A program made the translations under genes and the position numbers. This document shows positions 13,922 through 60,673 of a stretch of 64,000 bases of DNA, piece by piece; position 1 is the stretch's first letter; the number at the start of each line of letters is the position of its first letter. The stretch is from NCBI GenBank assembly GCA_012270555.1, contig JAAXIC010000006.1:1-64000 (forward strand), in the 5' to 3' direction. Below the pieces are notes generated by a model. The model was not told the DNA's origin and did no database searches. It saw nothing but the letters and a program-made list of their open reading frames with translations. This DNA comes from Chloroflexota bacterium (GTDB taxonomy: Bacteria > Chloroflexota > UBA11872 > VXOZ01).

Positions 13922-16632
13922 GCCAGCGGCTCCATGTCGTCCCAGCTCTTGCCCACCTTGGCATCCACCTTCACCGGCACGTCCAGCGACACGGCGTTTT
14001 CCATGAGCGGGATCACGAGATCGGTGGTCGCGTCAATGACGGCTTCATCGCACTCGAAGACCAGTTCATCGTGCACCTGCAGCAGCATATGTACGGGGAG
14101 GCCGGTGGCGGCCAGTTGATCGGCCACGTGGAGCATCGCCACCTTGATGATGTCCGCCGACGTGCCCTGCACGGGCATATTGATTGCCATGCGCTCGGCG
14201 GCCTGCCGCACGTTGAAGTTGGAGGACTGGAGTTCCCGCAGGTAGCGGCGGCGGCCCAGCAGCGTTTCCACGTAGCCGTGCTCGTGGGCGAATTGCTTGG
14301 TTCGCTCCGTGTACTCCCGCACTCCCACATGGGTCTTGAAGTAGCTGTCTATGAGTGCCGCGGCTTCCTGGAAACCGAGGTCGGTGCGTTGCTCCAGGCC
14401 GTGGGCGGTCACGCCGTAGATGATGCCGAAGTTCACGGTCTTGGCCGTGCGCCGCATGTCTTCCGTTACACTGCCCATCCCCACGTCGAACAACTGGGCG
14501 GCGGTAAAGGTGTGGATGTCCTCCCCGTTGCGGAAGGCCTTGCAGAGTTCTTCGTCCTGGCTGAGGTGCGCCAGCACGCGCAGGTCGATCTGCGAGTAGT
14601 CGGCGGCGAGCAGGACTTGGCCGGAACCACCGGCAACGAACGCCTTGCGTATCTTCCGTCCCTCCGCGGTGCGAATGGGAATGTTCTGCAAGTTGGGATC
14701 GTTTGACGAAAGCCGCCCGGTGGCAGAGCCGGTCTGTTCGAATGACGTATGGATGCGCTGTGTCTGCGGATTCACCTTGGTCGGCAGCGCGTCGAGATAC
14801 GTGGACTTGAGCTTCGTAAGCTGGCGGTAGTTCAGGACGAGATCGACAACTTCATGCGCACCCCGCAGCGGTTCCAATACCGAGGAATCTGTAGAGAAAC
14901 CCGTCTTGGTCTTCTTGGTCAAGGGAATGTCAAGCTCATGGACGAGGATGTCGCCAAGTTGTTTGGGAGAATTGATCTTGAATTCATGCCCGACAGCCTT
15001 GTAGATTTCGCTCTCTATAGCCGCTATGCGCCCTGCCATGTCCGCCGTGAGTTGCTGCAGCAATTCCACGTCCACCGCGATGCCCGCGAACTCCATGTGC
15101 GCAATGACTGTCGCCAGCGGCAGTTCCAGTTCATCATGGAGCGTGCGCACGTTGCGCTCGTCCAGATACTCTTCCAGCGCGGCGCGCAACGCCAGCAACA
15201 TCTCCGCCTCGTGAGCGGCTGCCTGCGCCAGCGTTGCGGCATCGGCAGCGGCCAGGGACTTCTTGCGGTCACGGAGATCGTCCACGCCCTCCAGCGTCGC
15301 TCCCAGGACGTCGAAGACGGCTTGCTTTAGCGTGGAAGAGCGGGCGCCGATGACGTTAGCAAAGTAGCCAGCCAGGTGGCAGTCGAATACCACGCCTCCC
15401 ATGCCGACACCGTGGGTGAGCAGCGCCAAGTAGAGCGCTTTGGCGTCGAATACGATCTTGGGTATCTGCTGGTCGCTCAGCACCGGAGCAATGGCTGCCA
15501 GCGCCTCTGACTCCGCTAATTCAACATAGGCCGCTTCGTTCCCGCCCCACGCGAACGCCAATCCCAGGAGACGGGGCCAGGCGGGCGGATCGGGATCAAG
15601 CACGGGTAGGACGGCGACGTCACCCACGTCGCGCAGCGTTGCGCACAGATCCTCAATCGCGCCGACGTCGCTGAGCACCTGAGCTTGTGTATCGGTCTTG
15701 GCTTCGCCAAAGAGCGCGGCCTGTTCTGTGGCCGCGCCGGCCGGCTGCGGCAGGCGGTCGAGCAGTGAACGGAAGCTCAACTCGCGAAACAGCGCCAGCA
15801 CTTCATCTTGGTCGTAATCGCCCAGTTCACTTTCCGCAGTATCGAGCGTGATATCCATGTCCCGTACAATCGTCACCAAGCCACGGCTCTGGGCGAGTTG
15901 CTCTTGGTTCTCCGCCAGCGCTTTCTGCTGGCGGGTAGGCAACTCATGGATGTTTTCAAGAATGCCCTCGATATCGCTGTATTTCTGTAGCAGAGTCCCG
16001 GCGGTCTTCGCGCCGATGCCGCGCACGCCGGGCACGTTATCCGAGGTGTCTCCCACCAGCGCTTTGTAGTCGATGACCTGCTCTGGCGTAAGCCCCTGGA
16101 AGCGCTCCGCCACCTCCTCGGGTCCCACCTCTGCCAGTTCCCCGGAGCGCGGCCGGGGCACCAGCAGGTGCACCGTGTCATCCACAAGTTGGTAGGTGTC
16201 GGTATCGCCGGTGACGATGAAAGTAGGTATCTGCTGTTCCGCCGCCTGGCGGGAAAGGGTGCCGAGCACGTCGTCCGCCTCGTAGCCCTCTACCGCGAAA
16301 ATGGGGATGTTGAACGTCTCTACTACCTGGCGCACCCGGTCCATCTGTTGGAAGAGCAAGGGATCGCCCTCCGGCCGCGTCGCCTTGTACTCGGCGAACT
16401 GCTCGTGGCGAAAGGTGGGGCCGGGCAGATCGAAGGCGACGGCAACGTACTTCGGCTTCAACTTGTCGATGACGTAGAGGAGCGTGTTCGTGAAGCCAAA
16501 GACGGCGTTGGTCGGTTCGCCGGAAGCGCTGGTGAACTCCTTCGGCACCGCAAAGAACGCCCGATGGACGATGGAGTGTCCATCTATGAGGACAAGCGAA
16601 TCGGCGGGGGTTTTGGTGTTGGTGGGGCTCAT
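13918..16632 (-). CDS. polA: DNA polymerase I
   Basis: A 904-residue family A DNA polymerase for gap filling, Okazaki-fragment maturation and repair synthesis. Residues 1-~290 form the 5'-3' exonuclease/flap domain (GHSIVHRAFFA, VEGYEADDVLGT, GDTDTYQLV, GDTSDNVPGVRGIG). Residues ~320-500 correspond to the 3'-5' exonuclease fold but lack the DxE metal-binding motif, so proofreading is probably absent. The polymerase domain has motif A DYSQIDLR (678), motif B RRTAKTVNFGIIYG (727) and motif C QVHDELVFE (852). It is the first gene of a three-gene overlapping operon. Confidence 0.97.
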   Translation of the reverse strand: MSPTNTKTPADSLVLIDGHSIVHRAFFAVPKEFTSASGEPTNAVFGFTNTLLYVIDKLKPKYVAVAFDLPGPTFRHEQFAEYKATRPEGDPLLFQQMDRVRQVVETFNIPIFAVEGYEADDVLGTLSRQAAEQQIPTFIVTGDTDTYQLVDDTVHLLVPRPRSGELAEVGPEEVAERFQGLTPEQVIDYKALVGDTSDNVPGVRGIGAKTAGTLLQKYSDIEGILENIHELPTRQQKALAENQEQLAQSRGLVTIVRDMDITLDTAESELGDYDQDEVLALFRELSFRSLLDRLPQPAGAATEQAALFGEAKTDTQAQVLSDVGAIEDLCATLRDVGDVAVLPVLDPDPPAWPRLLGLAFAWGGNEAAYVELAESEALAAIAPVLSDQQIPKIVFDAKALYLALLTHGVGMGGVVFDCHLAGYFANVIGARSSTLKQAVFDVLGATLEGVDDLRDRKKSLAAADAATLAQAAAHEAEMLLALRAALEEYLDERNVRTLHDELELPLATVIAHMEFAGIAVDVELLQQLTADMAGRIAAIESEIYKAVGHEFKINSPKQLGDILVHELDIPLTKKTKTGFSTDSSVLEPLRGAHEVVDLVLNYRQLTKLKSTYLDALPTKVNPQTQRIHTSFEQTGSATGRLSSNDPNLQNIPIRTAEGRKIRKAFVAGGSGQVLLAADYSQIDLRVLAHLSQDEELCKAFRNGEDIHTFTAAQLFDVGMGSVTEDMRRTAKTVNFGIIYGVTAHGLEQRTDLGFQEAAALIDSYFKTHVGVREYTERTKQFAHEHGYVETLLGRRRYLRELQSSNFNVRQAAERMAINMPVQGTSADIIKVAMLHVADQLAATGLPVHMLLQVHDELVFECDEAVIDATTDLVIPLMENAVSLDVPVKVDAKVGKSWDDMEPLA

Positions 16633-20246: not shown

Positions 20247-21113
20247 CTAATCGTCTTCTATGATCCCTTTGGCTTCCTCAGTCATCTCATACTTTCGAGG
20301 CTTGGACTCTTGCCGTTTAACTCCTCGCTCTTTCAGAATCGGCCAAACTTTGTTGCCGAACTCTATCCCAAATTGTGGACCTGACATACCGGCCATAGGA
20401 TGTCTTGGCAAGTATTCTTTGATGATTGCCTGACACTCTGTACTCTTGAAAACACTTACGGGAATCTGCTTCATAATCAGTTCGGCAATCTCATTGAGTT
20501 GCCCTGCGTTGTTTTCGCCCTTCTTGGTCGAGCGCATGGGGGACTTAGATTGAGTCTTGGTCTTGGCTGGAAAACGCACTACGTGGATATGGTCATTGGG
20601 GAAATACTCTCTTATAGTGGCTGATCGTGTCTTGTCACGGTCAGTCATCACCCAGAGGAACGGGGGTTTTCTTTGATTCAACTCTTTCAATTTCACATAG
20701 ACTGCCATGAAGTCACTATCGTCACTCATGGCAGCCACGAATTGCGTATTGCCGGACAAGAAGTCAGTCACAGCGTCGAGCGCCATTGTGATGTCTGCTG
20801 CATTCTTGGATGGCTGCTTGCTAAAGTGCTGAGTCCCTCGGACTGTTAACACCAATTGGGAATATTTACTCTCAGCCCACATTTCCCATAGTTGCGCTTG
20901 GTCTGCTTGGACGTAGAGGTTCAACCGTTTGAGAGGAGGTATCTCATTGGGCCAAGATTCAATAACCCCTTGAACAAGAGCCTGGGCACTATCTTGAAGG
21001 TTCTCGGTATCTACATATAGCGTTGCCCCTGCGGGTTGCCCAGTAGCACCAAGAACAGCAGGAGACTGGTCAGCCTGCTTCGGCGGGTTATCGCAATGAT
21101 TATCTGTGTTAAT
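20247..21113 (-). CDS. NYN-domain (PIN-like) nuclease with ATT start codon
   Basis: A 288-residue protein if started at ATT 21113. The NYN fold is indicated by LYVDTENLQD (Asp35), KNAADITMALDAV (Asp107) and VAAMSDDSDFMAVYVKL (Asp131, Asp134), the expected acidic metal-binding set of LabA/DUF88-type RNases. A basic linker and a C-terminal ~90-residue helical domain follow. The only usual start codon, TTG at 20924, would delete Asp35. The frame is open upstream, and AGGAGG ends seven bases before ATT. Base composition is visibly more A+T-rich than the neighbours, suggesting transfer. It lies 51 bp downstream of murD on the same strand. Confidence 0.75.
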   Translation of the reverse strand: MNTDNHCDNPPKQADQSPAVLGATGQPAGATLYVDTENLQDSAQALVQGVIESWPNEIPPLKRLNLYVQADQAQLWEMWAESKYSQLVLTVRGTQHFSKQPSKNAADITMALDAVTDFLSGNTQFVAAMSDDSDFMAVYVKLKELNQRKPPFLWVMTDRDKTRSATIREYFPNDHIHVVRFPAKTKTQSKSPMRSTKKGENNAGQLNEIAELIMKQIPVSVFKSTECQAIIKEYLPRHPMAGMSGPQFGIEFGNKVWPILKERGVKRQESKPRKYEMTEEAKGIIEDD

Positions 21114-58501: not shown

Positions 58502-58666
58502 GAAATGTACCTCTTCATGCGAATATATGCCCGCATTGTACCATAGGATTTGCGGCCATTGAGCGGTTTATGTGGGATACTAGGCGAGTCCGCATGGTGT
58601 TAGGCGAGTCGAGTTCGAACAAGCTTCGTAAAGTGAGCAACCTTATCAAAGTGGAGAAAGAGCAGC

Positions 58667-59095
58667 ATGGATATCTCGGTTTATTTGGCACCCGGTTCTC
58701 TCGTCATCTCATTAATATCTGCGGTCTTCGCAGGGATGGCACTGATTAATTCAAGACGGCTCCAAAAGGAGCAATGGGAGCAAGATAAACTAAACCTAAG
58801 ACGAGACGTTCTCCGGCGTCTGTTTGCCTACCGCTACAGACTTACCGAGTCATTGATGGGTGGTGATGGAGAGCCGTTCATTGCGCTGAATGAGGCAAGA
58901 ATAGTGTACGCCGGCTTTCCTAGAGTCACTGAGGCGTTGAATAAGATGCACCGAGAGCTTGGAATTGAGGGGCTGCTTAGCCTAAACATAGTGGCTCTTG
59001 TCAGAGCGATGGCAAATGCGGCAAATGTCTCCGTCGACGACCTAGACGAGAGCTTTATTGAACGCCCATTTACCCCTCCAGCGGCTAAGCAATAG
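58667..59095 (+). CDS. Small membrane-anchored protein of unknown function
   Basis: A 142-residue protein: one N-terminal transmembrane helix (PGSLVISLISAVFAGMALI) and a cytoplasmic helical domain (KLNLRRDVLRRLFAYRYRLT, FIALNEARIVYAGFPRVTEALNKMHREL). The order resembles DUF6680-type proteins, but this is only by eye. Composition is A+T-rich compared with hflX. It faces, tail to tail, the NYN nuclease gene 63 bp away, which has similar composition; the two may have arrived together. Confidence 0.55.
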   Translation: MDISVYLAPGSLVISLISAVFAGMALINSRRLQKEQWEQDKLNLRRDVLRRLFAYRYRLTESLMGGDGEPFIALNEARIVYAGFPRVTEALNKMHRELGIEGLLSLNIVALVRAMANAANVSVDDLDESFIERPFTPPAAKQ

Positions 59096-59157
59096 CGCTG
59101 ATTATGGGCATTGGAGACCCAAGTACGAAGCCCTTATCGGGGTGCTTGCATTGAGCT

Positions 59158-59781
59158 TTACCAACCCACGGGTTTCCTTATGGTGCCTTGAGCATCTGAG
59201 AATTCGTCCGGGAAGAGGCTGGCACTAAGTGGCCCCTTGCGCAATAGCCTGTACCATGAAGCTGCGCCGTGGAGTTGGAAGCTCCGCTTGTGGCTTGGGT
59301 CGTAGACGCCGACCTGCTTGCCCAGCTTCGACCGTGCCATTTCGATGGGAAGCTGGAGGTCGGAGTCGTTGGAAATTACCACGGCCAATTCGTATTGATT
59401 CTCGAAGCCATCCATTAGCAAAAAGGAGGCCAAATTCACATCGGACCCCTTCTCCTCGGTGTCGAGTACTTTGACAATTCGAGATCCCATTTCTGGCGGC
59501 TGCGCCAAGGGCCTCCGCTTGGTCTTTGGCAGGAAATGTCCGTAGTGGATGGTCAAATTGGGGATCGTCTGAAGTGCCCGAAGGTACTTCTGCTGCCGCT
59601 GGGCCTGCAAAGGGTCGCTAGGGCGGTTGGTGACAAGAGCAGTGAAGTACCGTATCCGAACAATATGATGCCTTGGCAAGAGTATTCGGGCCAACTTGCC
59701 AACATCGAGCCACCTGTTTGGTGTCCCTTGCAAGGCGCGATAGTATAGGTTGAACCCATCTATGTAAATGTTGGTTCGGAT
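59158..59781 (-). CDS. NYN-domain (PIN-like) nuclease with ATC start codon
   Basis: A 207-residue protein if started at ATC 59781. The N-terminus then reads (I/M)RTNIYIDGFNLYYRALQG, the classic NYN beginning with Asp8. GSDVNLASFLLMD (Asp114) and VVISNDSDLQLPI (Asp139, Asp141) complete the acidic site. The first usual start, TTG at 59733, would remove Asp8 and the IDGFNLYY strand. The reading frame is closed by TGA at 59796-59794, so at most four more codons are possible upstream. GAGGA lies nine bases before ATC. The domain is usually an RNase. Confidence 0.78.
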   Translation of the reverse strand: MRTNIYIDGFNLYYRALQGTPNRWLDVGKLARILLPRHHIVRIRYFTALVTNRPSDPLQAQRQQKYLRALQTIPNLTIHYGHFLPKTKRRPLAQPPEMGSRIVKVLDTEEKGSDVNLASFLLMDGFENQYELAVVISNDSDLQLPIEMARSKLGKQVGVYDPSHKRSFQLHGAASWYRLLRKGPLSASLFPDEFSDAQGTIRKPVGW

Positions 59782-59795
59782 TAGTACACGTCCTC
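59779..59795 (-). promoter_or_regulatory. Shine-Dalgarno with ATC start
   Basis: On the minus strand GAGGA (59795-59791), nine bases, then ATC (59781-59779). No in-frame ATG, GTG or TTG exists between the preceding TGA and codon 17. Confidence 0.6.
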
Positions 59796-59796
59796 A

Positions 59797-59829
59797 AAAA
59801 AAGCTAAGGCTGCCTTGCGGCAGCCTTGC
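59797..59829 (-). terminator. Intrinsic terminator directly upstream of the NYN gene
   Basis: On the minus strand AAGGCTGCC-GCAA-GGCAGCCTT forms a nine-bp stem, followed by AGC and a run of T. The T-run touches the GAGGA of the NYN gene. It could end transcription from the gene at 59984-60673, or act as an attenuator for the NYN gene. Confidence 0.75.
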
Positions 59830-59983
59830 GCCCTGTTGCCGGAGCGTACAGGGGGTGTATACGAATATGGTAACCGACTTTGGTTGACACTGTCAACCTG
59901 CTGTGTTTTTGGATCAGGCTCTACCTAGACGAAAGTTCCAACCAAGAGACTCAAGAGCTTCATTCAGACGATCTTCGCAGTCG

Positions 59984-60673
59984 TTAGGACTCCTCTGCTT
60001 CCGCCGCATCATCTTCGCCGTCCAAGTGGAAGTTCACGCCCAGGTCCATGAGTTCTTTGAACGCCTCAGCGAGACTCAAGAGGCTTTTGCCCTTGGTGGT
60101 GAACGTGAACTCATGGCGCTCGCCAAGCAGGCCGAAGAATATCTTCTTGAGCTCGTCCGTCAAGCAGCCGCTATCGACGAGCGATTGTACGGCCTTCATT
60201 TCCAACTCCGGAGAGGGCGTTCGCGCGATGTCACGGTCGGTCACAACACTCTGGAACTTGGTCAGCGCATCGATGCCGCGCCGGTCGAGCAGCTCCACCA
60301 CAGTCGGTACGAGAATGGCGCGCACCGTGTCGGCAAACTCCTCGCGCGTACGCTCTGCGTTGCGTCCCGCCTGATAGCGGAAGATGTCGTGGTAGCCGGG
60401 AAGCATGAGCGAGGGAGGTATGTAGTCCGGCGTCACGTCGAAGGTTGTGCCGCGGGTGCGGCTCTCGTGCTTGACGCCAAAACCCAACTGCGTGAGCCGG
60501 CCCAGGCTCTCTTCCTGCACACGCGTCGGGCTGAACTCCTGTCCTTTCATCGTGCGTCGCGCGGACTGATAGAGAATATCAATGTGCTGGTCGCCCAGGT
60601 CTCGCGCATACATCTCGCGCACCTGCGTGATAAGGTCGTCAACCTGGATCTCCTTTTGCATGTCGATAGCCAT
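59984..60673 (-). CDS. Hypothetical protein
   Basis: A 229-residue, largely helical protein that I do not recognise. It has a regular charged composition, FSPTRVQEESLGRLTQLGFGVKHES, a PDYIPPSLMLPGYHDIFRYQ turn-rich segment and a very acidic C-terminus (DGEDDAAEAEES). There is no signal peptide or membrane helix. AAGAGGG lies five bases before the ATG at 60673. It is followed by an intrinsic terminator. Confidence 0.6.
   Translation of the reverse strand: MAIDMQKEIQVDDLITQVREMYARDLGDQHIDILYQSARRTMKGQEFSPTRVQEESLGRLTQLGFGVKHESRTRGTTFDVTPDYIPPSLMLPGYHDIFRYQAGRNAERTREEFADTVRAILVPTVVELLDRRGIDALTKFQSVVTDRDIARTPSPELEMKAVQSLVDSGCLTDELKKIFFGLLGERHEFTFTTKGKSLLSLAEAFKELMDLGVNFHLDGEDDAAEAEES

Follow-up and report, generated by a model that had tools for sequence, protein, structure and literature searches.

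In the window, that is, the whole 64,000-nt stretch of Chloroflexota DNA that was analysed, the segment 59158-59896 on the minus strand is best read as a two-gene module made of a structured RNA with its own promoter and a predicted NYN ribonuclease. The features of the locus are as follows.

58502-59983, no strand assigned: block nearly identical in the window genome and genome G005, with 8 differences in 1,482 nt
59158-59781, minus strand: NYN-domain nuclease gene, proposed toxin; 207 aa, ATC start; Pfam NYN, PADLOC HEC-09, PHROG 7929
59791-59795, minus strand: GAGGA, a possible ribosome-binding site by its sequence, 9 nt before the ATC
59797-59861, minus strand: two-hairpin RNA linked to the NYN gene, proposed antitoxin RNA; 65 nt; covariance model R1, 61.8 bits, E = 1.6e-16
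59831-59853, minus strand: hairpin 1 (CCCUGU ... ACAGGG); MFE and centroid structures identical; counterpart of the 33-nt repeat in the E. coli plasmid relatives
59803-59829, minus strand: hairpin 2, the 'terminator' of the initial annotation, followed by a T7 tract at 59802-59796
59867-59896, minus strand: predicted sigma-70 promoter of the RNA; TTGACA at 59896-59891, 18 nt, TACCAT at 59872-59867; 10 of 12 matches

The NYN frame extends on the minus strand from an ATC at 59781-59779 to a TAA at 59160-59158 and is open throughout. Its product matches the Pfam NYN domain (PF01936, 37.6 bits against a cut-off of 24.2), the PADLOC HEC-09 profile PDLC04163 (E = 1.5e-38 over residues 2-207) and PHROG 7929 (E = 2.4e-58), and PDLC04163 is matched by all 48 of the aligned NYN sequences. 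Residues D8, N11, E110, D114, N116, D124, D139, and D141 are invariant in this 48-row alignment, and the window protein keeps every one of them. An AlphaFold model, for which the alignment was built without plasmid-derived rows, has a pLDDT of 95 and the NYN fold; its best solved matches are VPA0982 (2qip) and the NYN domain of MARF1. No ToxN fold is among the listed structural hits of the model, a PDB sequence search with the protein returned chance hits only, and NCBIfam holds no family for the nuclease or its two neighbours. The protein is predicted to be a PIN-like ribonuclease. When its codons are compared with those of the nearest relative, which is 75% identical, the changes are mostly synonymous (dN 0.17, dS saturated); therefore, the NYN protein has been under selection for most of its history. 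Several plasmid NYN genes of the superfamily (H41, H50, H56, H62, and H75) carry the annotation 6-hydroxy-3-succinoylpyridine monooxygenase (HspA/NicB), apparently an error passed on from record to record.

The initial annotation placed the start of the gene at the ATC at 59781, with a TGA at 59796 leaving almost no room for any other, and both points agree with our reading. The minus-strand order is TTTTTTT, the in-frame TGA (59796-59794), GAGGA, and then GGA CGT GTA CTA ATC, which are the only codons available; those after the ATC are CGA ACC AAC ATT TAC ATA GAT GGG TTC. Between the in-frame TGA and the first strand of the NYN protein, there is no ATG, GTG, or TTG, and the next canonical start in the frame, a TTG at 59733, is downstream of the catalytic Asp8. 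Since the TGA lies upstream and the TTG past Asp8, the ATC is the only plausible start. The spacing of the GAGGA and the T-tract of a nine-bp hairpin ahead of the gene were also correctly described, as the sequence and the terminator scan confirm. Two artefacts were considered and rejected. The bases at the NYN start are identical in a second genome, SB0662_bin_44 (loci L122/L006), so it is unlikely that a sequencing error produced the ATC. A one-base frameshift from an out-of-frame GTG at 59789 shows no sign of an indel, because the spacing from the T-tract to the ATC equals that of the 75%-identical relative.

In that relative, the same ATC codon is codon 4 of an ATG-started frame. The initial annotation proposed a tabulation of start codons across NYN homologues, and the outcome goes against conservation of the ATC: among about 168 distinct loci of the family with readable 5′ ends, some 165 have a canonical start codon (ATG, GTG, or TTG) in the aligned position or close to it. 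Of the three exceptions, one is the window's lineage, with ATC, another is an Eremiobacterota locus with ATT, and the third is a truncated contig. The ATC as a feature of the NYN family is thus rejected, and its predicted use as a start is confined to the window's lineage. In this lineage, the ATC would lower the output of nuclease and may mark the way to losing the proposed toxin. Together with the hairpin and its T7 tract, long by the standards of the family (3-6 T in most copies), the ATC suggests that the window's NYN copy may well be weakly expressed.

A second NYN gene in the window, at 20247-21113 on the minus strand, starts with ATT at 21113 behind AGGAGGT, and the relevant stretch contains no ATG, GTG, or TTG. 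A congener (L269, 71% protein identity) keeps the arrangement AGGAGGT-N6-ATT, and ATG is found in the more distant L270 and L271. The ATT is a possible IF3-sensitive start. The gene itself is a member of another family and lacks an R1 RNA. The initial annotation was right that a rare start class occurs in two NYN genes of one window, as both appear to start at an ATH codon. The regulatory logic that it proposed for the pair did not hold up: the families differ, the gene at 20247-21113 lacks the RNA, and neither start is kept in distant relatives. The two rare starts are real, and no common mechanism for them was found.

The leaders of NYN homologues are alike even at 45-50% protein identity and follow a common plan, in which one to three bases separate a hairpin CCC...GGG from a second, GC-rich one, and a short T-tract comes last. 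In the window, the terminator scan places the 9-bp stem of hairpin 2 at 59827-59806, with a GCAA loop, AGC, and then seven T, and the window RNA has a folding z-score of -4.68 (in SD below shuffles). A sequence-only MAFFT alignment of 32 leaders contains 18 pairs, 13 of which show compensatory changes. The covariance model R1 was built from this alignment, which was itself made without reference to structure. Among the 109 matches to R1 (108 distinct), aligned by fitting to the model as the 32 sequences were not, double-sided changes occur in all 18 pairs (8/8 in hairpin 1 and 10/10 in hairpin 2), and 94.7% of cells are paired. The covariation score is 0.590, against 0.219 for shuffled alignments and at most 0.129 with partners slid. 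Rfam 15 gives no match for the RNA of the window, of 13 relatives, or of 8 further loci, and a nucleotide search of plasmids with one RNA found no match. That a conserved RNA gene is linked to the NYN gene is virtually certain. The hairpin is the end of a putatively transcribed structured RNA gene and more than a stop signal.

The -10 box of the window's RNA promoter ends 5 nt before the start of the RNA model. Across the family, and in all orientations, a promoter with at least 8 of 12 matches is found at 100 of 111 RNAs, against 38.5 expected after shuffling, and in 82 of those 100 the -10 box ends 3-7 nt before the RNA. A perfect palindrome, GGTTGACAGTGTCAACC, at 59882-59898 on the minus strand overlaps the -35 box of the window's RNA promoter and is a possible operator; it is absent from the 75%-identical relative.

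The linkage of RNA and nuclease is near-obligate and takes three orientations. In the GTDB genome set, the R1 RNA is directly beside the NYN gene in 79 of the 80 nearest loci, a few of which re-find seed loci of R1 (e.g., L122, L141, L161, and L182) while the great majority lie outside the seed. It is upstream on the same strand in 61 loci, immediately downstream and convergent in 14, and upstream and divergent in 4. By their genome records, the 80 loci fall in at least 12 phyla, including Chloroflexota, Actinomycetota, Acidobacteriota, Armatimonadota, Gemmatimonadota, Planctomycetota, Verrucomicrobiota, Spirochaetota, Pseudomonadota, Myxococcota, Latescibacterota, and Eremiobacterota, among others. 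Chromosomes, plasmids, and prophages are all within the family's range. The RNA-NYN linkage is also seen on 27 viral contigs; most NYN relatives on viral contigs that are below about 33% identity lack the R1 RNA. A link of the RNA to NYN genes in general was rejected, as the R1 RNA is absent from the genome's other NYN genes, from the first NYN family, and from distant relatives (28-36%). A recognisable RNA is missing beside the NYN gene of L197 and, in a strict scan, beside five, among them L033 with a weak match. At L184, L188, and the Actinomycetota loci L127, L129, L130, L168, and L172, the convergent RNA ends 1-25 nt from the 3′ end of the NYN gene, so the RNA's terminator may serve both genes.

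The RNA also occurs in multiple copies. Among 61 related genomes, two copies precede 12 of the 54 intact NYN genes, each with its own promoter-like sequence in the examples read. In small E. coli plasmids, hairpin 1 is repeated in tandem as a 33-nt unit, four times in L068 and five times in L273, and a strong terminator lies between this array and the NYN gene downstream. The last of these repeats has a compensated stem, in which CCTGTGGC/GCCGCAGG has become CCTACGGC/GCCGTAGG. More distant plasmid NYN genes (29-35%; L274, L275, L276, L278, L280, and L281), from Klebsiella, E. coli, Thiothrix, and Xanthomonas, have a different upstream sequence, partly repeated, and then a strong intrinsic terminator; in L274, GCGATTAAGTTACGC occurs twice upstream of the NYN gene. 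These upstream sequences probably represent additional RNA families with a like arrangement.

A strict scan of the 61 related genomes finds a strong RNA within 400 nt of 49 of the 54 intact NYN genes. The two partners are not equally often alone: 32 of 93 RNAs have no intact NYN gene, against 5 of 54 NYN genes without an RNA. Four of the 32 orphan RNAs are beside NYN remnants according to the search table, and others show remnants on closer reading. The window genome has a second RNA of the family, on contig C26 at 14404-14472 (L102 2005-2073), with no intact NYN gene; orphan RNAs with flanks similar to those of this copy are found in G005 and G004 (L088 and L095).

The window's own locus can be compared with sister genomes at the orthologous site, which is flanked by a 229-aa gene (86-97% identical) and hflX (89-93%). 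In the sister species G001, G002, and G004, the RNA is present at this hflX site and the NYN gene is missing; the stretch that is absent, 58573-59797, contains the NYN gene and a 142-aa ORF. Most simply, the proposed toxin was lost and the antitoxin retained. Alternatively, the NYN gene may have been inserted later beside an older RNA. In the block shared with G005, there are no differences in the RNA or its promoter and two in the NYN gene (624 nt), against 3-6% in the flanking genes. Recent exchange of the whole block or an unusual constraint could account for this near-identity. The 142-aa ORF (58667-59095, plus strand) has no family match and is convergent to the NYN gene; it is in the block in common with G005 and is missing in the sister species. 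The 229-aa protein (59984-60673, minus strand) has no Pfam, PADLOC, PHROG, or NCBIfam match and is kept beside hflX in the genus (86-97%).

We propose that the module is a type III-like toxin-antitoxin or abortive-infection system, in which the RNA inhibits the NYN nuclease; on the arrangement of the genes and by analogy with known RNA antitoxins, this reading is likely. Hairpin 2 would terminate most transcripts, so that the RNA would be made in excess, and read-through, or a separate promoter in other lineages, would supply a small amount of nuclease. The folded RNA would bind the nuclease and keep it inactive. A fall in the supply of RNA, such as might follow the shutdown of host transcription by a phage, would free the nuclease to cut RNA, its presumed target, with a putative toxic effect. 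The asymmetry between orphan RNAs and solitary NYN genes is as expected of an antitoxin and a toxin and so supports the antitoxin reading, although orphan RNAs might equally reflect an independent role of the RNA or the insertion of NYN genes next to RNAs already in place. We consider it somewhat better than an even chance that HEC-09 NYN proteins in general serve as toxins in a new, phylum-wide class of immune modules with RNA antitoxins, whose RNA gene may lie on either strand, ahead of the nuclease gene or after it, and that hairpin 1 alone is inhibitory and has been multiplied into arrays in enterobacterial plasmids.

The antitoxin reading has to be weighed against others. The RNA might be an activating cofactor or scaffold in a ribonucleoprotein nuclease, required by the NYN protein for folding, target choice, or the sensing of infection. 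Near-obligate linkage and encoding in trans would fit such a role equally well. A cofactor, however, should decay with its enzyme, and orphan RNAs are frequent and NYN genes without an RNA rare; the RNA is almost wholly two helices, with no variable guide segment, and the order of repeats, terminator, and nuclease in the E. coli plasmids matches that of RNA antitoxins. We regard the cofactor as unlikely. Still less probable is a cis leader, whose hairpins would attenuate or terminate NYN transcription on a signal or on cleavage of its own leader by the NYN protein. Such a leader is suggested by the 61 of 80 loci where the RNA shares the strand of the NYN gene and stops shortly ahead of its start, and by the likeness of hairpin 2 to a terminator. 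Yet in 18 of the 80 loci, the RNA is encoded opposite to the NYN gene, either after or ahead of it and mostly with its own recognisable promoter, and orphan RNAs persist without any NYN gene. Occurrence on either strand, before or behind the gene and with its own promoter, therefore indicates a trans-acting RNA gene rather than a cis leader. In the same-strand layout, the RNA may act as a secondary attenuator of the NYN gene.

The reading of the initial annotation, an ordinary terminator plus a rare ATC as a double brake common to the genome's NYN genes, is the least probable account of all, even though the sequence does contain the ATC, the T7 tract, and, at the other NYN gene, the ATT start. 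The ATC is not conserved, the hairpin belongs to a conserved RNA, and the genome's other NYN genes lack the RNA. The shared start logic is refuted, and a low-expression effect in the window's lineage is possible. As to the double limit itself, the hairpin with its T7 tract can terminate and the ATC is the likely start, but the hairpin is part of an RNA gene and the start is not conserved. The initial annotation made its reading depend on conservation of the ATC and the terminator among close relatives; homologues have ATG, and the terminator is conserved, as an RNA gene.

A different question is whether the window nuclease is a decaying remnant, its start lost, the toxin silenced, and the RNA kept; this concerns the window copy only and does not compete with the antitoxin reading of the family. 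The sister species that have the RNA and no NYN gene at the site, the want of a canonical start in the window copy, and the NYN remnants behind intact RNAs elsewhere all lean that way. The ORF and its catalytic residues are intact, however, and only 2 differences in 624 nt separate the two genomes, with flanks at 3-6%, although recent exchange would explain this too. Moreover, an ATC behind a good GAGGA can initiate weakly, as in Streptomyces infC (PMC5472188). We consider the decay of this copy possible but doubtful.

If the RNA is the antitoxin, the module, found in at least a dozen phyla, would bring a further toxin fold into the class of systems with RNA antitoxins, and the orphan candidate HEC-09 would gain its missing RNA partner. 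To our knowledge, RNA antitoxins are known for few toxin families. No paper on a NYN protein with an RNA antitoxin was found in the open-access literature, and a report elsewhere is possible. A defence screen with the protein only may then fail, as the nuclease would kill the host or be without its regulator. More generally, what has been taken for a terminator hairpin can be a gene.

The rare start of the window's NYN gene is of the class that IF3 discriminates against, like those of infC (ATT in E. coli, ATC in Streptomyces) and sigR (GTC) (PMC5472188). The use of ATC for infC in Streptomyces means that this codon can initiate translation (PMC5472188). The rare starts of infC and sigR are described as regulatory (PMC5472188), whereas the window's ATC is confined to one lineage. 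A rare start conserved among homologues, as expected of an IF3-regulated gene, is not seen in the NYN family (about 165 of 168 canonical). The window protein has in common with the NYN ribonucleases MARF1 and VPA0982 (Pfam PF01936) the fold and the catalytic acidic residues. Unlike them, its family has an extra C-terminal region ending in KPxxW and a linked RNA gene; none was found for MARF1 or VPA0982 in the literature searched. By profile, the window protein is a member of HEC-09, whose PADLOC model covers the protein only and does not include the RNA partner. HEC-09 has been correlated with phage susceptibility in Pseudomonas and is a candidate defence label only (PMC12447246).

A close parallel is AbiF/Abi_2 with the RCd22 RNA (abiF motif, RF03085) of a Clostridioides difficile prophage. 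There, as in the window, the order is promoter, RNA, intrinsic terminator, and toxin; the RNA motif occurs twice, the system is prophage-borne, and the toxin is expressed by read-through from the RNA promoter (PMC12373285). RCd22 neutralises the AbiF toxin in cis and in trans (PMC12373285); neutralisation is thus proven for AbiF/RCd22 and proposed, by analogy, for the window. The toxin of AbiF is of the Abi_2 type, with a relationship to the ancestors of Cas13, whereas the proposed toxin of the window is a NYN protein with an unrelated RNA that has no Rfam match; conversely, RF03085 has no match in the window, 13 relatives, or 8 further loci.

In ToxIN-type systems, the order is RNA repeats, terminator, and endoribonuclease (PMC8860590). 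The E. coli plasmid relatives share this order with ToxIN, CptIN, and TenpIN, which are mobile and often plasmid- or phage-borne. The RNA gene is directly linked to the putative toxin, as in type III systems (79 of 80 loci; 61.8 bits for the window RNA). The repeats before the terminator and toxin number four or five in the E. coli plasmids, one or two elsewhere, and one in the window, unlike the long repeat arrays of ToxI. An endoribonuclease is predicted from the NYN fold and the invariant acidic residues. This fold is NYN/PIN-like and not that of ToxN or AbiQ: the model matches NYN domains (2qip, MARF1), with no ToxN among the listed hits. The type III RNA is a pseudoknot, whereas the RNA of the window's family consists of simple hairpins as far as predicted, and its gene, unlike in type III systems, may be on either strand and either precede or follow the nuclease gene. 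Given this difference in toxin fold, and with neutralisation proposed by analogy, we do not file the module as a strict type III system, alike as the layout is. The plasmid relatives with four to five repeats make the module testable in E. coli.
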